This document shows, in pieces, positions 18,133 through 28,693 of a stretch of 64,000 nt of DNA; within the stretch, counting starts at the first letter, position 1; every line of letters starts with the position of its first letter. The notes below the pieces were generated by a model. It was not told the origin of the DNA, made no database searches, and saw nothing but the letters and a program-made list of their open reading frames with translations. The position numbers and the translations under genes are program-made. Source of the stretch: Halogranum rubrum (GTDB lineage: Archaea; Halobacteriota; Halobacteria; Halobacteriales; Haloferacaceae); assembly GCF_900114455.1 (NCBI RefSeq), contig NZ_FOTC01000002.1, positions 591,012 through 655,011 on the forward strand, read 5' to 3'.

Positions 18133-19857
18133 TTAGAAGCTGACCTGAACCTGCGTCGAGCTTCCGCTCTGTGACTGGCTCTGGTCGTTGTTCTCGCCGT
18201 CCTGGCTCTGGTCGGCGGACTGCTCGCTGTCCTGTTCTTGGTTCTGGTCGACGTTGTCGCCCTGAGCGTGCTGGGTTGCCTCGGCCTCGGCGTCCTGCTC
18301 TTGGCTCTGGTCGTTGTTGTACCCGTCCTGCTCTTGGGTGGCGTCTTGGTCGACGTCCTGTTCTTGGTCCTGGGTGATGTCGTCGCCGTGTGCGGCCTGG
18401 CTGGCGTCAGCGTCGGCGTCCTGGGACTGGCTCTGGTCGTTGTGCACGCCCTCCTGGTCCTGGTCGGCGTCCTGGGTCACACCCTGGGACTCTTCCTGAG
18501 AGTTGTCGTCGCCGGTGGCGATCTGTTCGGCGGATTCGTCGCTGTCCTGGGACTGGCTCTGGTCGTTAGCGATGCCGTCCTGGTCCTGGTCAGCGTTCTG
18601 TTTGTTGCTCTGGGTCTGTTCTTGGCTGCTGTCGGTACCGTCCTGGCTCTGGTAAGCGTCCTGGGAGGACTCGGCGTCCTGGCCCTGGTCGTTGTACGCA
18701 CCGTTTTGGGTCTGATCCTGTTCCTGAACGGCCTGTTCGCGCTGCTTCTGGTCGTTGTCGTCGCCGAACTGCTGCTGGTACTCGGACTGCTCAGTGTCGG
18801 CGCTCTGGTCTTGACTGCTCGCATCAGCGTTCTGGGACTGGTCCTGTTTCTGCTGTGCGGATTCGGTCTGGACTTGGGTGTTGTCCTCGCCTTCGAGGTA
18901 CGCGCCCTGGTCCTGGTCGGAGGTTGCGCCCTGGGTCTGCTCGCTGAAGTCACCGGACTGCGACTGCGTCTGGTCGGCTTCGGCGGTTTCCTTCTGGCGC
19001 TGTGCGTTGTCTTCGCCGGTCTGGCTGGCGAGTTGGTTCTGCTCGGAGGATTCGCCCTGGAACTGTCCGCTGAAGTCGCCCGACTGGCTCTGGTGCTGGT
19101 CGGAGTCGACGGTCTGCTGTTGGTTCTGTCGGCTGTCGACGGAGTAGAGCTGACCGCCCGCTTGCGTCTGGTTAGCGTCCTGGATCTGGACCTGCAGGCT
19201 CACGTTGGAGTGCTGCGACTGCGAAGCGCTCTGGTCGACGCCCTGGTTCTGGTGCTGGTCGTTCTTGAAGCCGACCTGGTAACCCTCGCTGAACTGCTCA
19301 GCGTTCTGGTCCTGGTACTGCTCGCTGAAGTTGCTGTACTGCGATTGGGTACCCATCTGGTCGACGTCCTGCGTCGACGTCTGGTCGTTCGCTTTGCCGT
19401 CCTGGCCAGCGAGACGCTCTTGGTCGACCGTCTGGTCTTGACCCTGGAAGTTGAACCAGCCCTGCTGGAGGTTGGTACCGTACTGGTAGACGTCCTGTGC
19501 GACCTGCTGGAGGTTGCGGACGCCGTACTGGCCGGTGTTGCCAGCCTGCGAGGACTCCTGGGCCTGTGCCTGGCCGTTGCCAGCGCCAGCCTGTGCCTGA
19601 CCTTGCATCTGCGCGATGTCTTGGTCGGAGGTCTTCTCGTTGTTGATGCCGTCCTGGTCGTCTGTGAGCGACTGGACGAACTCCTGTACTTGCGATTGAG
19701 AGTTGCCGAACGATGCCGAGGTTGCGCCGGCAGCGCCGACGATACTGCCCGAGACGACGATCATGGTGATCGCGACGACGAACAGTCGAGAGATGGCGCG
19801 CATCCCGCGACGTCCGGGGGCGGACTCGGAATCGGTGGGTTGATTGTTGTCTGACAT
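18133..19857 (-). CDS. Secreted Q/N/D-rich protein with curlin-like 21-residue repeats
   Basis: I start at ATG 19855-19857 (MSDNNQPTDSES), giving 574 residues. A Sec-type signal peptide covers about residues 18-46 (RLFVVAITMIVVSGSIVGAA). The rest is almost wholly Gln, Asp, Ser, Asn, Glu, Ala and Gly. From residue 281 to the end a strict 21-residue period places Gly at 281, 302, 323, 365, 386, 407, 428, 449, 470, 491, 512, 533 and 554. Asn or Ser usually follows three residues later and Gln is often two before. Several units, such as QDGIANDQSQSQ, match curlin spacing Q-x-G-x2-N-x5-Q. No Cys and almost no aromatic residues occur in the repeats. It may be an extracellular amyloid or beta-solenoid fibre. 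It is divergent from the pilus operon. Confidence 0.72.
   Translation of the reverse strand: MSDNNQPTDSESAPGRRGMRAISRLFVVAITMIVVSGSIVGAAGATSASFGNSQSQVQEFVQSLTDDQDGINNEKTSDQDIAQMQGQAQAGAGNGQAQAQESSQAGNTGQYGVRNLQQVAQDVYQYGTNLQQGWFNFQGQDQTVDQERLAGQDGKANDQTSTQDVDQMGTQSQYSNFSEQYQDQNAEQFSEGYQVGFKNDQHQNQGVDQSASQSQHSNVSLQVQIQDANQTQAGGQLYSVDSRQNQQQTVDSDQHQSQSGDFSGQFQGESSEQNQLASQTGEDNAQRQKETAEADQTQSQSGDFSEQTQGATSDQDQGAYLEGEDNTQVQTESAQQKQDQSQNADASSQDQSADTEQSEYQQQFGDDNDQKQREQAVQEQDQTQNGAYNDQGQDAESSQDAYQSQDGTDSSQEQTQSNKQNADQDQDGIANDQSQSQDSDESAEQIATGDDNSQEESQGVTQDADQDQEGVHNDQSQSQDADADASQAAHGDDITQDQEQDVDQDATQEQDGYNNDQSQEQDAEAEATQHAQGDNVDQNQEQDSEQSADQSQDGENNDQSQSQSGSSTQVQVSF
18136..19017 (-). repeat. Fourteen tandem 21-codon repeats
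   Basis: The coding repeat spans residues 281-574 of the secreted protein, with a 63-bp period. The unit is roughly G-x-x-N-D-Q-x-Q-x-Q-D-A-x-x-x-A-x-Q-x-Q-D. Adjacent units alternate between two variants, GxxNDQSQ and GDDxxQxQ, giving a 42-residue super-repeat. Less regular units extend back to about residue 150. Confidence 0.75.
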
Positions 19858-20179
19858 TGGTTGGGGACGTTGACTTTCGCTTGAAACGTCGACCAATCAT
19901 TTCCGGGCACACCACTTGGGTATGTCATCACTGTTGCCTTACTAAACGGCGGTTAAACTGCCGATAACGACGGTTGGGGTTCCATACCGGTGCGCTCTGA
20001 AAGCGACTCGTCTGGGCCGGCCGTGACACTCGGACCTTATCGGCAATCGCACCCAGAAACGCGTCTCACGAGCGATTCGTCCGCACCCGTTCGGTCAGAT
20101 TGTCACTCCGACAGAATGGATGGCTACCCATACACTCTGCGGAAGAAGACTTTTTAGCAGTGACAGCATGTTGTTGACA
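19858..20179. promoter_or_regulatory. Divergent regulatory spacer between curlin-like gene and pilus operon
   Basis: This 322-base spacer holds no gene. The plus-strand operon has a TATA box (cttttta, 20150-20156) 27 nt before ATG 20180. A near-perfect 17-base palindrome, cggcggttaaactgccg at 19947-19963 with one mismatched pair, lies between the two promoters and could be an operator controlling both directions. The promoter of the minus-strand gene is not obvious. Confidence 0.5.
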
Positions 20180-23100
20180 ATGGCTACAGACGGCGTCGAT
20201 GGTCCTGCTGGGAAATTGGAGGGAACCACCGACACAGGGCAGTCGTCGGAAGAGACAGCGGAGGGAACGACTGCGTCACAAACTGCCGTCGTCGGTTCGT
20301 ACTCGTGGCGGGACTACCTCGAAGAGTACGGCCCTGATGGGTCGGCAGAGGAGCTCTACGCCAATATCGGCCCCACACCGGGTAGTGATCGCTGGGAGGC
20401 AGACGAGACACACACCCCGACAGCGAGCGATTGGGAACGAATCGATATCGACCCCGCAGACCATCTCGGCTTTCCACCCGACGACCTCGAACGGCGTCTC
20501 GGCGTCGCCGGAACCGACGCGCGACGACACCAGGAGACGTTCGAATCCTTCTGTGACCCCGAGACGACTCCGGTGGTCAAAGACGAGTGGATGTGGGAGC
20601 ACTACAAACGTCTCTACTACTACGAAGACGATGGGTCCGTCCCGCACGACGCTGACGGCGAGAAAGAACCGTTCGACCGTTCGGCAGCGCTGGGATTCGA
20701 CCCCGACGACCTGGGTGAGACGCTCTCACGACTTCACGACCGCGGCGAAGAACTGCAGGACCTCGTCGACGAACGGACCGTCGACGTCGACGAAGATCTC
20801 GACGAGGACGCGTTCTTCCAGACTACCGACGGAGAGACGACCATCGTCAACCGATACGACCTGGAGAAGGCCGTCCCGATGGCGAAGAAGACCCACTTTC
20901 GCGAAGTCGAACGTTACTGGGTGAACGAGCCACACGCGTTCGTCATTATCTTTCATTCGACGAAGGAAAACGAGAAGAAGTACTACGTCGTCGAACCGTA
21001 CCTCAACGACATCGAGTCGGACCTCGAATCGTTTCTCACGGGAAAGCTCCGAACGGCGATCAAGTACTCCGATACGGACGTCGTCGCCTCTGCCGAGGAG
21101 GATAGACGGGCAGTTATCGAACGCGAGACGTATCGACTGCTCGACCGCTACGACCTCTTCTCGCAGCCGCGCGACGGGGAGTACGGGTTCGCCAACACGC
21201 TCGCCGACCGACTCGACCTCAACGTCGACGGTAATGCGACGGTGAGCCGTCTGTTTCATCTCTTCGGGTATCAGAACCCCGACGCCGAAGTATCAGCCCT
21301 CGACGGCCTCTCGGCCAGACCAGAGCCTGCTGTCATCGTCGAGGACGCCAAGACACTCACCGAGTATCAGGTGAACAAACTCCTGTACTTCCTGACGCGG
21401 GACTTCATCGGCTACGAGCGTATCGACGCCATCAAACACGACATCAACGTCGAGGACATCTCCTGTGACGGCTACAACTCGCCAGTGTTCGTCTACCACG
21501 GCGAGTACGAACAGATCATCTCGAACGTCGTCCACGGCGAGTCGGAACTCGACGAGTTCGTCGTCAAACTCGCCCAGCGGTCGGGGAAAGGCATCTCGAA
21601 ACGCCGACCACAGGTCGACGCGACGCTCCCCGACGGCTCTCGTGCTCAGTTGACGCTCGGCCGAGAGGTGTCGGACCACGGGACGAACTACACCATCCGC
21701 CAGTTCAAGGACGTCCCGTTCACCCCACTCGACCTCATCAACTGGAAGACGTTCTCGCTCGACGAGATGGCGTTCCTGTGGCTCTGCATCGAGAACAACA
21801 AGTCGCTCATCTTCGCGGGCGGGACGGCGTCGGGGAAGACCACCTCGCTGAACGCCGTCTCGCTCTTCATCCCGTCGAGTTCGAAGATCGTCTCCATCGA
21901 GGACACGCGCGAAGTCGAGTTGCCACAGCGCAACTGGATCGCCTCTGTCACCCGTCCGTCGTTCTCCGACGACGACAAAGGCGACGTCGACGAGTTCGAC
22001 CTACTGGAGGCTGCACTCCGACAGCGCCCCGACTACATCGTGATGGGTGAGATTCGTGGTGAGGAGGGTCGGACGCTCTTTCAGGTCATGTCGACGGGGC
22101 ACACGACCTACACGACGTTCCACGCCGACTCCGTGGGCGAGGTGTTGAAGCGTTTCACGACGGAACCGATCAACGTCTCGAAGACGATGTTCTCGGCGCT
22201 CGACCTCGTCTCCATCCAGACGTCGACGCGGGTGAAGGGACGGAAAGTGCGCCGGAACAAGTCGCTCACCGAAATCAACCACTACGACGCCGAGAACGAC
22301 GAGATCAACGTCCAAGACGTCTATCAGTGGCAGGCCGAGACGGACGAGTATCTCCACATGGGCGACTCGAACACGCTCGACGAGATTATGTTCGACCGCG
22401 GGTGGAACAGAAGGGAACTCGACGAGCGACTGTTCGAGCGGCAGGTCGTCCTCGCGTACCTCATCGTCGAGGGTCTCAACACCTACACGCAGGTGGCCGC
22501 GACGTTTCAGGCGTTCATCAACGACCCCGACACGATTCTCTCCTTGATGGCGAACGACCGACTCGAACGGAGTCTCGAAGACCTCCGTGAGATGGAGTCG
22601 GTGCTCATCAACATCGACCCCGAGAAAGAGGAGATGGTGCCCCGGCCGGACCCGACCGACGAGATTCTCGCCGAGGCGAACGAGATTCTCCGCCGGGCCG
22701 ACGAGGAACTCTTTCCCGACTACCGTGGCACCGTCGACGGGAGCGTCGCGGACGCACTAGCCGACATGGAACCCGCTCCCGACGTGACCAGCGGTGCAGT
22801 CGACGCATCCACCGACGCCACCTTCCCGTTCGACTCCGACGCTCACCCACTCGACTCGGCCGACGAGGCTCCCGCGCTCGACGGCGGGAGTTCGCTTCCC
22901 GACGAACTCGACGACGGCGGGTCGACACCGGCACTCGACGGCGAGACGGCTTCCAGCGAGGCAGAGAGCGGAACCGCCGCAGCCGACGACTTCGGTGACT
23001 TCAGCGACTTCGCCGACATCGACGGGTTCGACGACTTCGACAGCATCGACGGCTTCAGCAACGTCGACGATGTCGACGACGTCGAGCGCTTCGAGCTTCT

Positions 23101-23326
23101 CGGCATCGACTCGGACGACGACTCCCTCGACGACGTCGACGGGTTCGACCTCGCCGACGCGAGCGGGTTGGACGAACAGAGCGTAGGCGACGACGGAGAC
23201 ACGACCGACGAGGCCGAAACCACGGTCGACGAGGAGAACGAACGTGCGAACGACGAGAGCCGAGAAGCCGAAGACGACGCGGCCGCTGGATGGCGGTTCG
23301 GCGTCGACGAACAGGAGGACGAGTGA
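20180..23326 (+). CDS. pilB: Type IV pilus/secretion ATPase (PilB/GspE-like)
   Basis: I start at ATG 20180 (MATDGVDGPAG), because a TATA box sits 27 nt upstream and haloarchaeal messages are usually leaderless. This gives 1048 residues. The secretion ATPase core has Walker A at 547-555 (GGTASGKTT, Lys553), then an Asp-box/Walker B region with 'YIVMGEIRGEEGRTLFQVMSTGH'. This motor powers pilus assembly at the cytoplasmic face. The N-terminal 450 residues are the usual long archaeal extension. The final 180 or so residues form an acidic disordered tail with DGFDDFDSIDGF-type repeats. The stop codon overlaps the start of pilC. Confidence 0.92.
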   Translation: MATDGVDGPAGKLEGTTDTGQSSEETAEGTTASQTAVVGSYSWRDYLEEYGPDGSAEELYANIGPTPGSDRWEADETHTPTASDWERIDIDPADHLGFPPDDLERRLGVAGTDARRHQETFESFCDPETTPVVKDEWMWEHYKRLYYYEDDGSVPHDADGEKEPFDRSAALGFDPDDLGETLSRLHDRGEELQDLVDERTVDVDEDLDEDAFFQTTDGETTIVNRYDLEKAVPMAKKTHFREVERYWVNEPHAFVIIFHSTKENEKKYYVVEPYLNDIESDLESFLTGKLRTAIKYSDTDVVASAEEDRRAVIERETYRLLDRYDLFSQPRDGEYGFANTLADRLDLNVDGNATVSRLFHLFGYQNPDAEVSALDGLSARPEPAVIVEDAKTLTEYQVNKLLYFLTRDFIGYERIDAIKHDINVEDISCDGYNSPVFVYHGEYEQIISNVVHGESELDEFVVKLAQRSGKGISKRRPQVDATLPDGSRAQLTLGREVSDHGTNYTIRQFKDVPFTPLDLINWKTFSLDEMAFLWLCIENNKSLIFAGGTASGKTTSLNAVSLFIPSSSKIVSIEDTREVELPQRNWIASVTRPSFSDDDKGDVDEFDLLEAALRQRPDYIVMGEIRGEEGRTLFQVMSTGHTTYTTFHADSVGEVLKRFTTEPINVSKTMFSALDLVSIQTSTRVKGRKVRRNKSLTEINHYDAENDEINVQDVYQWQAETDEYLHMGDSNTLDEIMFDRGWNRRELDERLFERQVVLAYLIVEGLNTYTQVAATFQAFINDPDTILSLMANDRLERSLEDLREMESVLINIDPEKEEMVPRPDPTDEILAEANEILRRADEELFPDYRGTVDGSVADALADMEPAPDVTSGAVDASTDATFPFDSDAHPLDSADEAPALDGGSSLPDELDDGGSTPALDGETASSEAESGTAAADDFGDFSDFADIDGFDDFDSIDGFSNVDDVDDVERFELLGIDSDDDSLDDVDGFDLADASGLDEQSVGDDGDTTDEAETTVDEENERANDESREAEDDAAAGWRFGVDEQEDE

Positions 23327-25350
23327 GCCTCGACTCCAAGTCGGGCGTCGGTGCCCGCTCGGACGTGTTGAGTGACGCGTTCTATCCGCTGTACAGCCGT
23401 CTGTTCGACGACGAGGGCGAGTTCGTCGCCGACGTCGAAGAGAAACTCGCCCAGGCACGGATGTCTGAGACGGTCGAACTGTACCTCTCACGTGCACTCG
23501 CAGTCGGCGTACTCACTGGCGGTGTCTTGTGGCTCGTCGGAACGCTCCTCGCCTACGCTGTGTTCGCGCTCGGCCTGCTTTCGGCCGAGGCGCTGTCGCT
23601 CGGGGCACGTATCCCGAACGAGACGCTCTACGACCTCGTCGTCGCGGCCAAAGTACCGGCGGCTATCGGTCTCGCGGGCGTCGTCTTCGGGTCGCTCGGC
23701 TTCGCGTTCGGGTTCGGGTCACTCGTCGCTATCCCCTACTCGAAAGCGTCGTCGCGAAAACGCCAGATAAACATGCTCCTCTCGGACTCCGTCTCGTTCA
23801 TGTACGCCCTGTCGGTGGGCGGGTTGAACCAACTCGAAGTGCTGGAGGCGATGGCGAAAGCCGAGGACACCTACGGTGAAGTCGCAAAGGAGTTCCAGAG
23901 TATCGTCCAGGAGACGGAGTATTTCGGCGTCGACTACCGGACGGCCATCCGTAACCAAGCGATGGAGACGCCGAGCGACGAACTCTCGCAGTTTCTCACC
24001 GACATGCTCTCTATCGTCAACTCCGGGGGGAACATGCAGCAATTCCTCGACGACAAGAAGGACAAGTACATGCGGACGGCCAAACAGCAACAGGAACTGA
24101 CGCTGGAGACGCTGGAACTGTTCGGCGAGATGTACATGACGCTCTCGCTGTTTCCGCTCTTGCTCATTATCATCCTCGTCATCATGAGCATGCTCGGTAA
24201 CGCTGACGACATAATGCTCTACGGGACGGTGTACGGTCTCATCCCCATCACTGGCGTGGGTTTCTTGGTCCTCGTCTCGACGGTCAAGCAAGACGAGACC
24301 GGTGACGGCTACCTCAGTCCGTCGGACGCCAGTTCTCGATTGGACGACAGTCGAAAGGAAGGACTCCTCCACCTCGGTATCGTCGAGAGCTTCGTCGGCG
24401 ACTACGGCGTCTTCGACCGGATCAAATCTCGTGAGGGGACCTACAAGACGAAAGTACTGCTCCGGAACCCACATCACTTCTTCCGTGATTTCCCCCTGTT
24501 CACGCTCGTACTCACCATTCCGGCCGCACTCGTCTTGGTGGGCATCGCCGTCGCCAGTGGGTCGGCACCGACGACCTGGGACGGGATGGTCGCCGCACCC
24601 GTCTGGGGGACGGTCATTTGGGTGTACGTCCCGGTGTACGTCGTCGCGATTCCGCTCGCCATCTTTCACACGTGGAACGTCCACTCGCGAACCGCCGTCG
24701 TCGGGAAACTCTCGGACAACCTCCGGCAACTGTCGAGTGCGAACGATACGGGCCAGACGCTGCTCGAATCCATCAAAAGCGTCTCCGAGACGTCGTCGGG
24801 CAAACTCGCCGACGAGTTCGCGATTATGCACGGCAAGGTCAACTACGGCATGAGTCTCAGGGAGGCGCTCGTCGAGTTCAACAACAAGTATCACATCCCA
24901 CGTCTCGCTCGGACGGTCAAACTCATCAGTAAGGCACAGGAGGCGTCGAGTCAGATTACGGCCGTCCTCAGTACGGCGGCACAGGCCTCCGAGAATCAAG
25001 ACGACATCGACCGCGAACGGAAATCTCGCACTCGGATGCAGGTGGTCATCATCATCATGACCTATCTGACGCTCTTGGCCGTGATGGCCATCCTGAAGAC
25101 ACAGTTCCTCGACGTCATGGCCGGGTTGACGGACCAAGCAGGAGGCGGCAGTGGCGGCGGTGGCATGAGCTTCGGCGGCGGTGTCGACTCGAACCTACTC
25201 TCCGTCTTGTTCTTCCACGCCGTCACGTTGCAGGCCATCCTCTCGGGGTTCATCTCCGGCTACATCCGTGACGCCGACATCGTCTCCGGTGTGAAGTTCG
25301 TGGTCGTGTTGCAGACGATTGCGCTCGTTGTCTGGATGGTGGTCGGATGA
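23323..25350 (+). CDS. pilC: Type IV pilus membrane platform protein (PilC/TadC-like)
   Basis: The start is GTG 23323 (VSLDSKSGVGARSDV), overlapping the pilB stop as GTGA, with GGAGG seven bases upstream. The 675-residue product has two tandem T2SSF-type domains: 'MYALSVGGLNQLEVLEAMAKAE' near residue 165, and 'LSSANDTGQTLLESIKSV' in the second half. Several transmembrane helices are present (LLIIILVIMSMLG, VIIIMTYLTLLAVMAILK). The platform protein couples the ATPase to pilin insertion. A Gly-rich loop (QAGGGSGGGGMSFGGG) precedes the last two helices. Overlap with both neighbours indicates translational coupling. Confidence 0.9.
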   Translation: MSLDSKSGVGARSDVLSDAFYPLYSRLFDDEGEFVADVEEKLAQARMSETVELYLSRALAVGVLTGGVLWLVGTLLAYAVFALGLLSAEALSLGARIPNETLYDLVVAAKVPAAIGLAGVVFGSLGFAFGFGSLVAIPYSKASSRKRQINMLLSDSVSFMYALSVGGLNQLEVLEAMAKAEDTYGEVAKEFQSIVQETEYFGVDYRTAIRNQAMETPSDELSQFLTDMLSIVNSGGNMQQFLDDKKDKYMRTAKQQQELTLETLELFGEMYMTLSLFPLLLIIILVIMSMLGNADDIMLYGTVYGLIPITGVGFLVLVSTVKQDETGDGYLSPSDASSRLDDSRKEGLLHLGIVESFVGDYGVFDRIKSREGTYKTKVLLRNPHHFFRDFPLFTLVLTIPAALVLVGIAVASGSAPTTWDGMVAAPVWGTVIWVYVPVYVVAIPLAIFHTWNVHSRTAVVGKLSDNLRQLSSANDTGQTLLESIKSVSETSSGKLADEFAIMHGKVNYGMSLREALVEFNNKYHIPRLARTVKLISKAQEASSQITAVLSTAAQASENQDDIDRERKSRTRMQVVIIIMTYLTLLAVMAILKTQFLDVMAGLTDQAGGGSGGGGMSFGGGVDSNLLSVLFFHAVTLQAILSGFISGYIRDADIVSGVKFVVVLQTIALVVWMVVG

Positions 25351-25892
25351 GACGTTCACGCCGGGGGCAGATGACTATCGACTACGCCATCGGTGCGGGC
25401 GTCTTTCTGCTCGCAGTCGCGTTCGTCGTCGCGTTCATCCCCGGTATGATCGAACCCTACGAGGGAATCCAGCGTGAGACAGTCACCTCCGACCGAGTCG
25501 CGACACAGCTCGCGACTGGACTGCTGGGCGACCCCACCGAGCCTTATCTGCTCGACACCGACTGCACGCTCGCGTTCTTCAGCGGAGCGACGCAGTCGAA
25601 GTGCCGGTTCTCTGGAAATTCACTCACCGAGCGAATCGGTGTCGACGACGCTCAGTCGGTCGACGTCAGACTCACAGCAGACCTTGACGGCGACGGGTCG
25701 ACAGCCACGCTCTGCTGGGATCGTGATGGGGAGTCGCTCGTTGAGGAGGGAGACGCTGCCTGCGACGGAAGTGACACACCGTTCGTCTCTGCGACGAGCG
25801 ACCCGCCGACAGAGACTGGTTCAGTCGTCGTCGGGCGTCGAATTGTCTCGCTAGCGAACACCGACGTGACACTCCTCGTCAGGATGTGGTAA
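25347..25892 (+). CDS. Pilin-like protein 1 of the pilus operon
   Basis: The ATG overlaps the pilC stop (ATGA). The 181-residue product starts with basic RRSRRGQMTIDY, followed by a hydrophobic helix (AIGAGVFLLAVAFVVAFIPG), the layout of archaeal type IV pilin-like class III signals. The globular part is small and acidic and has four Cys (in DTDCTL, SKCRF, TLCWD and AACDG) that may form disulfides outside the cell. I associate it from memory with the haloarchaeal DUF7287 family. It is probably a minor pilin or pseudopilin of the machine encoded by the operon. Confidence 0.7.
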   Translation: MRRSRRGQMTIDYAIGAGVFLLAVAFVVAFIPGMIEPYEGIQRETVTSDRVATQLATGLLGDPTEPYLLDTDCTLAFFSGATQSKCRFSGNSLTERIGVDDAQSVDVRLTADLDGDGSTATLCWDRDGESLVEEGDAACDGSDTPFVSATSDPPTETGSVVVGRRIVSLANTDVTLLVRMW

Positions 25893-25893
25893 G

Positions 25894-26502
25894 ATGCGTG
25901 CACAGGCACATACACTGGAAGCAATCTCCGCAGCACTCCTCGTCGTCGGCAGTGTCGTGTTCGCGCTTCAGGTGACTGCAGTCACGCCGCTGTCGGCGAG
26001 CACCTCGAGTCAGCACATCGAGAATCAGCAAGACGCGATGGCGTCGGGCATTCTCGCACAAGCAACCGAAGACGGGTCGCTCAAACGAGCGGTCCTGTTC
26101 TGGAACGAGATTGGCGGTCAGTTCTACGACGCGGGGCCCAGACGGCCCTACTACATGAACGCGCCACCACCGCCGGATATCGAGTTCGGCCGACTCCTGG
26201 AGCGAACGTACGGGGTGCGAGGAATCGCGTACAACGTCCACGTCGGATACCAGGCACCGGGTGGTGGCTACCGCGAAATCAGATACATCTACCGGGGAGA
26301 ACCCAGTGACAACGCGGTCACCGCTTCGACCTACGTCACGCTGTTTGACGACGACCCCCTGTACGACGACGCCGACGACGATGGTGTCGCCGAGCAAACG
26401 ACGGGGACGTCGCTCTCGACGACGAACTTCTACGCGAGCGACGTGTCGACGTCGCTCGTCTACAACGTCCTCCGGGTGGAGGTGGTCGTATGGCGGATGT
26501 AG
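25894..26502 (+). CDS. Pilin-like protein 2 of the pilus operon
   Basis: The 202-residue product begins MRAQAHTLEAISAALLVVGS, a short basic start followed by a single hydrophobic helix, as in type IV pilin-like proteins. The segment TAVTPLSASTSSQHIENQQ after the helix is characteristic of a haloarchaeal family that I recall as DUF7288. The rest is a soluble domain with aromatic-rich strands (RRPYYMNAPPPP). It starts one base after the previous stop and overlaps the next gene by 13 bases, so it is part of the coupled operon. It probably acts as a minor pilin. Confidence 0.7.
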   Translation: MRAQAHTLEAISAALLVVGSVVFALQVTAVTPLSASTSSQHIENQQDAMASGILAQATEDGSLKRAVLFWNEIGGQFYDAGPRRPYYMNAPPPPDIEFGRLLERTYGVRGIAYNVHVGYQAPGGGYREIRYIYRGEPSDNAVTASTYVTLFDDDPLYDDADDDGVAEQTTGTSLSTTNFYASDVSTSLVYNVLRVEVVVWRM

Positions 26503-27419
26503 CCCGTGACCGTGCACAACTGTTCCTTATCGGTGCACTTTCGCTGGCCATCACGTTCGTTGTGCTGGCACTCGTGTTGAACTCCGCAATCTACACGGAG
26601 AACCTCGCGACGCGCGGAGCAGACCAGACGGGGGCGACCGATGCGCTATCGCGCCAACACGACGTTCGCACTGCCGTCGGCAGCGTCGTCGACAGGGCGA
26701 ACGACCAGCAGGCGACGTACGACGACCAAGAGTCCGCTATCGGTGCAGCAATCGTCGACACAGAGGTCTTACTCCGGCAATACGAGGTGCGGAGTACAGC
26801 CCTACTACGTGTTGAGAACCCGGTCTACACACGAGGGGCACGAATCCAACAGACAGTCGACAGTCCTTTCGACGGCCCGAGCGGCAGTGGTGACTGGACG
26901 GTCGCGAGTGGAGTCCAGACGCGACAATTCTCTCTCACAGCAACACGCGCCTCGCTCGAAGACGAAGCCGACGACGATGCCTTCCGGGTCAGATTCGACG
27001 ACGGAACCGACGTATGGACCGTTCGGATATTCAGAAACGAACCCGGGACGGCGACGGTCGTCAGAGTTACCGACCCGTCTGGTGCAACGGTGGAGTGTCT
27101 GGACGATTCGGGGTCCGAGACGACCGTCGTCTTCTCTACAGCGACCGTCGGAGGCGGTTACTGCCGCGGACTCGCGTTCCTCGACGAATTGGGGACTCCG
27201 TACGACGTTCGGTTCGGGAATCCGACCGAAGGGTCGGGGACGTACTCATTGCTCGTCGACAAGACAGTCTCTGGTCTCGGTGCTAGCTATTCGGCACCCG
27301 ACGGCGACCCGCCCGCCTCGGAGGCCATCTACGCGGTAACCGTCGACCTCACGTATCGGACACCAGATCTGACGTATGAGACGGAACTCCGGGTTGCTCC
27401 GGGTGAGTTCCATGCGTGA
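26490..27419 (+). CDS. Pilin-like protein 3 of the pilus operon
   Basis: The 309-residue product starts MADVARDRAQLFLIGALSLA, with one N-terminal hydrophobic helix (LFLIGALSLAITFVVLALVL). 'NSAIYTENLATRGADQTGA' follows, typical of a haloarchaeal family that I recall as DUF7261. A large beta-rich extracellular domain makes up the rest, with two Cys (VECLD and YCRGL). It overlaps both neighbours, by 13 and 8 bases. Its size suggests it may sit at the pilus tip or base rather than form the shaft. Confidence 0.7.
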   Translation: MADVARDRAQLFLIGALSLAITFVVLALVLNSAIYTENLATRGADQTGATDALSRQHDVRTAVGSVVDRANDQQATYDDQESAIGAAIVDTEVLLRQYEVRSTALLRVENPVYTRGARIQQTVDSPFDGPSGSGDWTVASGVQTRQFSLTATRASLEDEADDDAFRVRFDDGTDVWTVRIFRNEPGTATVVRVTDPSGATVECLDDSGSETTVVFSTATVGGGYCRGLAFLDELGTPYDVRFGNPTEGSGTYSLLVDKTVSGLGASYSAPDGDPPASEAIYAVTVDLTYRTPDLTYETELRVAPGEFHA

Positions 27420-27882
27420 CGACCGTGCTGTCTCGGTCGGGTTGAACTACGTGTTGACACTGGGCATCAGTGCGATACTCATCTCGGGGCTTCTCCTCGG
27501 CCTCAGTGGCCTTCTCGAGAGTCAGCAGGAACAGACTATCCGGACGGAACTGGAGGTAATCGGCGAACAGTTTGCTGGTGACCTCGGCGCAGCGGATAGA
27601 CTCGTGTTAGCGAGTGATGGAGCGCCGACCGTCGAACTGCAGCCAAGTCTCCCACAGACAGTGACCGGTCTCTCGTACACACTTGAGGTGGTCGTCCCAC
27701 CCTCTGACTCGCCGTACCTACGACTCTCGACGGAGAGACCCGATGTGACGGTCCGTGTGCCGTTCACGCTTCCGACGCTCCCCGGGTCAAGTCCTGCGGA
27801 CCGTCTCGCCGACAGCGTCGCCAACGGTGGGGACGTCGTGATTCGCTACACGGATGGAGAACTGATGGTGGAGAATGCGTAG
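27412..27882 (+). CDS. Pilin-like protein 4 of the pilus operon
   Basis: I start at ATG 27412 (MRDDRAVSVGLNYVLTLG), not at upstream in-frame starts that lie inside the preceding gene. The RAVSVGLNYV opening followed by a hydrophobic helix (TLGISAILISGLLLGL) resembles the prepilin-peptidase (PibD) signal of archaeal pilins. The 156-residue product has a compact domain with beta strands and no Cys. I recall the family as DUF7266. It overlaps the previous gene by 8 bases and the next by 8. Confidence 0.72.
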   Translation: MRDDRAVSVGLNYVLTLGISAILISGLLLGLSGLLESQQEQTIRTELEVIGEQFAGDLGAADRLVLASDGAPTVELQPSLPQTVTGLSYTLEVVVPPSDSPYLRLSTERPDVTVRVPFTLPTLPGSSPADRLADSVANGGDVVIRYTDGELMVENA

Positions 27883-28693
27883 CACCGACCGTGCAGTGAG
27901 CGAGACGCTCAGTTTCGTGTTCGTCTTCGCACTCATCACGATGTCGATTGGGACAGTGTACGTCGTTGGGTACGGCGGGTTGCAGGACGTTCGCGACAAC
28001 GAACGCATCACGAACGCAGAACGCGCGTTCGACGTCCTCGCTGACAACCTACAGGACATCTATCGTGACGGCGCACCCGGTCGAGCGACCGAACTCAAAC
28101 TCGCAGACGCGAATCTGAGATTTGGAACCGAGACGCGAATGAACGTGTCGGTCAACAATCTCGACGGCACATCGAGTTGGGACAGCAACGACATCTCACT
28201 GACACCCCTCGTCTACCAAGCCGGAGACGAAACCGCGCTCGTCTACGAAGGAGGCATGGTGCTCCGTGTCGACCCATCGAGAACGACCGTGAAGAACCGT
28301 GTCGGGATGGTCTTCACGGAGGACGCGGATGTGAGAACTGCGGTCATCCCGCTCGTACAGACCCGGTCCAGCGGCGAGCGGACGAGTGTCAGCGGGTCGA
28401 CCACGGTGTTGGTACGGTCCGAACGCTCGATTACCGACGTCATGGCTACTCGGACGAACCCGACCAGCGAGACGGTTATCGGAGACTCCCGCTACGCTGT
28501 GTCGTTCGAAATCACGACCGACCCTGCACGCGCGCCAGCATGGGAGCGGTATCTGGAGTCGCAGATACCGGCGTCGTGGGACGATGATGGGACAGACGAC
28601 GTTTGTGTCGTCTCTGACGGGACGGTCACGTGTAGTATCGCTGTCGACCAACTGTACGTCACGGCAACGAGAATCGACATGAGTATCGAATAG
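27875..28693 (+). CDS. Pilin-like protein 5 of the pilus operon
   Basis: The 272-residue product begins MRSTDRAVSETLSFVFVFAL, a clear class III signal layout: basic start, R-A-V-S-E, then a hydrophobic helix. The extracellular domain has two Cys (DDVCVV and VTCSI) and many beta strands; I recall it as DUF7289-like. It is the last gene of the coupled plus-strand operon. The convergent gene that follows encodes another member of this type. Confidence 0.72.
   Translation: MRSTDRAVSETLSFVFVFALITMSIGTVYVVGYGGLQDVRDNERITNAERAFDVLADNLQDIYRDGAPGRATELKLADANLRFGTETRMNVSVNNLDGTSSWDSNDISLTPLVYQAGDETALVYEGGMVLRVDPSRTTVKNRVGMVFTEDADVRTAVIPLVQTRSSGERTSVSGSTTVLVRSERSITDVMATRTNPTSETVIGDSRYAVSFEITTDPARAPAWERYLESQIPASWDDDGTDDVCVVSDGTVTCSIAVDQLYVTATRIDMSIE

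Follow-up and report, generated by a model that had tools for sequence, protein, structure and literature searches.

The window analysed here is a stretch of 64,000 nucleotides from the Halogranum rubrum genome (contig NZ_FOTC01000002.1, positions 591,012 to 655,011). On its minus strand, positions 18133 to 19857 hold the coding sequence of a repeat protein of 574 amino acids, predicted to be secreted (hereafter the window protein). The coding sequence starts with the ATG at 19857 and its stop codon ends at 18133, while an in-frame TTG at 19896 provides an alternative start. The gene has a GC3 of 0.84 and, compared to its paralogue L002 (87% identical), a dN/dS of 0.30, with the differences concentrated at third codon positions. 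It is a real coding gene, evolving as a protein under purifying selection. The open frame on the plus strand (18238-19854) was rejected as a gene, being a mirror of the repeats with an L/V/G composition.

Hydropathy, the AF2 model and the paralogues all point to a Sec-like N-terminal signal at residues 1-46 (GRRGMRAISRLFVVAITMIVVSGSIVGAAGATSA; 19720..19857, minus strand), in agreement with the secretion signal claimed by the first-pass annotation. Indeed, a hydrophobic segment spans approximately residues 19-44, with the hydropathy (KD) maximum of 2.38 at residue 25; the model places a helix at residues 19-42, inside the signal region, and the paralogues carry the segment at the same place. 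The window protein is thus predicted to bear an N-terminal export signal. Upstream of the gene, the region 19858-20010 shares with the region upstream of L002 position 3222 a start-codon block (GAAAGTCAACGTCCCCAACCAATG) common to both genes. A CGTTTA/CGTTAA-rich block also lies about 100 bases upstream of the two genes, and is possibly a common control element.

Residues 68-572 (18142..19656, minus strand) consist of 24 units of 21 residues, with the pattern Q-x-G-x-x-N-x-Q-x-Q-x-Q-x-[AVS]-x-Q-x-A/Q-x-Q-x. They are laid out as 10 units (residues 68-277) and 14 units (279-572) separated by residue 278 (19024..19026, minus strand), the sole one-residue insertion among the 24 units, at which the register resynchronises by +1. 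The first-pass annotation had described fourteen units of exactly 21 residues: the length was right, and the count corresponds to the run that follows the insertion. The autocorrelation of the protein, evaluated against 500 shuffles, gave z=13.6 at lag 21 and z=22.0 at lag 42, followed by lags 84 and 63. The spacing Q-x-G-x2-N-x5-Q, which had been reported in several copies, does occur 10 times, versus 0.18 expected from shuffles (shuffle maximum 2), and the shorter Q-x-G-x2-N occurs 13 times versus 0.64 (maximum 4). All these copies share one register, bar one single-residue shift. The minimal curli repeat, defined as regularly spaced X6-Q-X-G-X2-N-X10 (PMC3521004), can be read in the window protein at a spacing of 21 instead of 22.

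The window gene belongs to a family. Its own genome contains at least six related genes, window gene included (a count that rests on searches), and the sister species Halogranum amylolyticum has a similar gene set; the third Halogranum species examined has no family member. Tblastn of the window protein on 60 genomes gave matches confined to its own genome and the sister species, and a plasmid search with the same protein gave no match. Plain tblastn with the window protein is insufficient to see the wider distribution, which emerges via the short-paralogue profile: a profile of five family members found relatives in 14 of 292 sampled Halobacteria, belonging to 9 genera. The short members (L005, 221 aa long, L006, L013 and L015) consist of the signal and 6-8 units, and nothing else. 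The medium and long members L002, L003 and L011 have a C-terminal extension with a CTDxxC motif; after the repeats, their C-termini read a conserved GIGGMGMQGASVTHD...MCTDxxC, which neither the window protein nor L010 has. Profile comparison shows the window and short subfamilies to be homologous (E=1.3e-56, a score to which a C-terminal extension present in some members on each side contributes).

Other members have a different architecture. The anchored partners L004 and L012 combine a membrane segment at the N-terminus with a long acidic spacer, repeats and a tail. L004 and L002 share a strand, L002 being immediately downstream, and L007 and L012 are arranged alike in H. amylolyticum; neighbouring repeat-protein pairs with a membrane-anchored partner, in either order, were also found in three other genera (L052, L054-L056). 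The window gene has no anchored repeat partner alongside.

Some further observations were made on the family and its surroundings. A plasmid of Halomarina sp. BND7 carries a 138-aa short member annotated as a hypothetical protein (L101:6001-6417, NZ_CP100455.1), so the family can be plasmid-borne; the C-terminus of this member (SQSQSSSQTQVAVQG) is identical to that of a Halogranum protein. Genome G258 encodes three consecutive repeat proteins of 337, 154 and 154 aa (L053:9712-12875), the small ones with the unit QSGAFNYQDQYQDNDQKQKAK. Another haloarchaeal family includes signal-bearing A-x-V-x-Q repeat proteins of 403 and 423 aa (L059:5462-6673 and L060:11328-12599), which adjoin E/Q-rich proteins of alternating 23/24-residue units and are possibly another curlin-like pair. 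In two other genera, very large proteins with GDVNGDG-type (FG-GAP-like) repeats (L061:2177-6940 and L062:13311-17414) adjoin Q/E-rich repeat proteins.

As regards the relationship with curlin, the window protein gave no match against Pfam (E<=10), NCBIfam or PDB. The Pfam curlin repeat PF07012 (Curlin_rpt, curated cut-off 20.7 bits), the profile that the first-pass annotation had proposed to search, matched neither the window protein nor anything in its genome (0 matches), which leaves the window protein outside the Pfam curlin family. In the short paralogues the sequence reads Q-x-G-x-x-N-D-A-D-Q-x-Q, the curlin signature with Gln replacing hydrophobic residues, and their profile (A2) found a single match among the 177,635 PDB sequences: 8c50, a bacterial curlin (E=6.1e-7). 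Because the extreme composition bias inflates weak similarities, this match was tested against shuffles: the 8c50 stretch (316 residues) scores 30.6 bits with the paralogue profile, at most -7.5 bits once its letters are permuted, and at most -0.9 bits after dipeptide shuffling. At the profile level, the short paralogues are curlin-related, and not by a chance motif.

With a matrix of the 8c50 curlin kernel and own-composition background, the top-five sum of the window protein exceeded that of every one of 1000 shuffles. The profile of the window subfamily (A3) found no match in PDB, 8c50 included, and its direct comparison with the 19-residue haloarchaeal curlins gave 4.5% probability. Since these direct comparisons are not significant, the link between the window protein and curlin is, on the profile evidence, transitive, through the paralogues. 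The initial reading of the units as curli repeats survives in this form, as a relation to curlin, and fails as Pfam membership.

Among 391 sampled Halobacteria, PF07012 exceeded its cut-off in four genomes, those of Haloterrigena turkmenica and three congeners, while a separate phylum sample of 393 genomes gave none at E<=0.01. The proteins L023 and L024, made of 19-residue units, scored 119 bits (5.7e-35) and 147 bits (1.3e-43), and profile comparison of their group with the short Halogranum family gave 97.7% probability (E=2.4e-12). The statement that no haloarchaeal equivalent of curlin is described has therefore to be amended, on account of these strong matches and of one archaeal protein with curli-like repeats that a 2012 paper recorded as an off-target hit of a profile (PMC3521004); in the literature searched we found no description of haloarchaeal curlins.

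These data also bear on ancestry. The haloarchaeal Q/N/G-rich beta repeats could have arisen independently of curlin by pure convergence, which would be compatible with a fibre. Such an origin is coherent with the lack of a direct curlin match for the window protein itself, with the occurrence elsewhere of curlin-like repeats outside csg operons (PMC10192328), and with the ease with which short repeats converge. It accords less well with the presence of full PF07012 kernels or of the Q-x-G-x-x-N-x-A motif in two haloarchaeal lineages, and with the plain tblastn of the H. turkmenica protein, which matched annotated CsgB and 'curlin' genes. We consider independent origin a sizeable possibility, although below an even chance. 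The halophilic bacterium Salinibacter ruber, which has plasmid-borne curlin/type VIII clusters (PMC6060240), is one conceivable source of the curlin repeats of haloarchaea.

The units have a marked internal pattern. Numbering as position 0 the Gln before x-G, positions 0, 5, 7, 9, 11, 13, 15, 17 and 19 contain zero charged residues across the 20 units of the short paralogues L005, L006 and L013, and the intervening alternate positions are 40-90% charged. The window protein has the same alternation, in a less strict form, with Q/N/A/V on the uncharged face and the x-G-x-x turn as the sole interruption. Furthermore, comparison of the window protein with L002 shows changes in 17/242 cases at the core positions (with Gly) and in 51/265 at the other positions (p=4.6e-5). 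Judged from the sequences, the alternation is what a beta strand would show if one face were buried and the other exposed, and suits a beta core; together with the preferential conservation of the core, it argues against both disorder and a coiled coil.

The latter would have 21 residues as three heptads, and the unit length is indeed divisible by seven. Gly and Asn are conserved in each unit, aliphatic residues are few, the periodicity is i/i+2 instead of heptad, and both AF2 models contain strands, so that we give a coiled coil next to no credence. As for disorder, halomucin is a proposed disordered acidic polymer that retains water and ions at the cell surface, and the window protein could be a similar glutamine-rich extracellular polymer: its composition (24% Gln, 12% Asp, 19% Asp+Glu) would suit this role, as would the low confidence of the AlphaFold models (mean pLDDT 47-49; 47 for the window protein, with 368/574 residues below 50). 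A disordered chain would need neither the near-perfect register, with a single indel in 24 units, nor the preferential conservation of alternate positions, and the nine positions devoid of any charge in the short paralogues also speak against it. We regard a disordered polymer as quite improbable.

Both AlphaFold models, built on three or four aligned sequences, draw strands of approximately 15-18 residues, which alternate with turns of 3-4 residues at x-G-x-x. The best-predicted part of the window protein is residues 390-574 (18136..18690, minus strand), with block pLDDT of 68-82, nine strands of 15-18 residues, 3-4-residue turns at x-G-x-x and the end STQVQVSF. The overall model, of low confidence and built on a shallow alignment, is an open, antiparallel-looking sheet. 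The closest solved folds to the confident C-terminal part are the antiparallel strands of outer-membrane barrels (TM-scores mostly <=0.3, Z about 13); 8c50 is absent among the structural matches listed, which carries no weight with a low-confidence model as query. A charge-pair test of hairpin against parallel stacking gave -11 for the hairpin versus -5.5 +/- 4.3, and the two-unit same-position signal is confounded by duplication. Neighbouring strands may form either an antiparallel meander or a curlin-like arch.

The turns differ from those of bacterial curlin. The bacterial kernel N-$-Psi-$-Psi-$-Q-X-G-X-X occurs twice per 22-residue unit (PMC10192328). The window protein has one x-G-x-x turn per 21-residue unit, the alternation running uninterrupted from position 5 to 21, and it lacks the CsgA-type arrangement of two N-$-Psi-$-Psi-$-Q motifs per unit, each followed by an X-G-X-X-type arc. 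Since the second curlin turn is missing, a simple CsgA-like solenoid with a 21-residue rung is doubtful, and this part of the initial curli reading is weakened. The haloarchaeal 19-mers read N-$-A-$-V-$-Q-$-N-$-A-$-V-$-Q and the 21-mers N-$-A-$-Q-$-Q-$-N-$-Q-$-Q-$-A-$-Q, in both cases followed by x-G-x-x. From this we infer that two short curlin strands may have been fused to one of 15-17 residues, the structural repeat being two units. A two-unit repeat would account for the higher autocorrelation at lag 42 than at lag 21 (for which a recent duplication of a 42-residue block is an alternative cause), for the palindromic inward pattern and for the 23/24 alternation in the related acidic group.

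Extending this reasoning, the haloarchaea could possess a 'double-width' curlin in which the second turn was lost and the rung comprises two units, which gives it 38 residues in H. turkmenica, 42 in Halogranum and ~47 in the acidic group of another family, while the hydrophobic zipper gave way to one of glutamine and asparagine, adapted to saturated salt. The amyloid would then have a new architecture, would need no outer-membrane machinery for its export, and would be a source of haloarchaeal biofilm amyloid. We advance this proposal tentatively and consider it rather doubtful.

As for secretion, the first-pass annotation had noted the absence of csgG, csgE and csgF nearby, and this extends to the whole genome: CsgG reached 12.3 bits (cut-off 20.8), CsgF 18.0 bits in a 1452-aa frame (cut-off 25.8), and CsgE gave no match. 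Divergent from the repeat gene, on the plus strand at 20120-28693, lies a type IV pilus-like operon with a PilB3-like ATPase, a T2SSF membrane protein and DUF7287/7288/7261/7266/7289. This PilB/PilC operon was rejected as dedicated assembly machinery: it has no DNA match beside the sister-species copies (a one-sided test, as those contigs end at the gene), and the L002/L004 locus sits by a TruA-like gene instead.

Taken as a whole, we hold it probable, with modest confidence, that the window protein is a secreted structural subunit of an extracellular, likely amyloid-like beta fibre, with a glutamine core and repeats that descend from or strongly resemble those of curlin. The repeat protein would be exported by the general Sec pathway across the single membrane, in a cell where a CsgG-type pore would be unnecessary. 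On or beyond the membrane it would fold into long beta strands, the uncharged faces packed as glutamine/asparagine ladders and the acidic residues facing outward for solubility in molar salt; subunits could then add end-to-end via their exposed edge strands to give a fibre. At the sister locus L002/L004, the anchored neighbour partner, with its membrane anchor, acidic spacer and same repeats, may nucleate or hold the fibre, by analogy with CsgB. The fibre could serve as biofilm matrix or in cell-surface adhesion.

The same protein could instead be a monomeric surface adhesin, a beta-sheet or beta-solenoid forming a long rigid rod that stays bound to the cell or the S-layer without polymerising. 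The sequence evidence for beta structure fits this equally well, AF2 draws an open sheet, and the number of units differs widely between paralogues (about 6 in L006, 24 in the window protein), as in rod-like adhesins. Against it, the window protein has no recognisable capping domain, the short paralogues are signal and repeats only, like curlin subunits, and the sole PDB sequence relative of the paralogue profile is a fibre subunit. A non-polymerising adhesin appears unlikely to us.

What is new here is best called a set of curlin-related repeats with a predicted glutamine core, one turn per unit and no csg machinery. Biofilms of H. volcanii stain with Congo red and thioflavin T, and so far no more than a candidate gene, of another kind, has been put forward for their fibre protein (PMC4180959). 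If fibre-forming, the Halogranum family could supply the amyloid suspected in haloarchaeal biofilms, and a named gene family, found in several genera and absent from most, allows a direct genetic test of it. If the fibre reading is true, curlin-type repeats, whose study has concerned diderm bacteria equipped with a dedicated pore, would extend to single-membrane archaea, and would include a natural case of a beta zipper that functions at molar salt with a polar core filled by glutamine.

Among known systems, the CS-class curlin R15.5 of Pontibacter korlensis (8c50; PMC10192328) resembles the window protein in its many exact repeats with the kernel Q-X-G-X-X-N-$-Psi-$-Psi-$-Q and in its very acidic surface, with charges outward and Q/N inward. 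It differs in the ~22-residue unit, which contains a hydrophobic Psi core and two turns of the X-G-X-X kind, whereas the window protein has 21 residues, one turn and mostly Gln at Psi. The PF07012 proteins of H. turkmenica and its congeners (L024, L023, L089 and L090) are likewise haloarchaeal and signal-bearing, have the unit Q-x-G-x-x-N-D-A-D-x-x-Q, and share with the Halogranum family a collapsed Q-x-N junction in place of the second turn; unlike the window protein, with its Gln core and no PF07012 match, they have a 19-residue unit, an A/V core and strong PF07012 scores.

The curli of E. coli (CsgA/CsgB with CsgG/E/F) also have a repeat protein as major subunit, and the second repeat protein at the sister locus could play the part of CsgB. 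Conversely, the Halogranum genome has no CsgG, CsgE or CsgF above cut-off, its cells have a single membrane, and its partner proteins carry a membrane anchor and an acidic spacer. Hydrophilic-core curlin-like proteins, such as A0A249PTX6 of Sinorhizobium fredii (PMC10192328), have a polar core and no csg operon as well, but, according to the description in that paper, on which we base the comparison, the core is Ser/Thr and the kernel is the standard 22-residue one with both turns. Lastly, the sheath protein of Methanospirillum and Methanosaeta, presented in the title of its report as a new type of amyloid protein (PMC6242892), is comparable, by description and not by sequence, as an archaeal extracellular amyloid.
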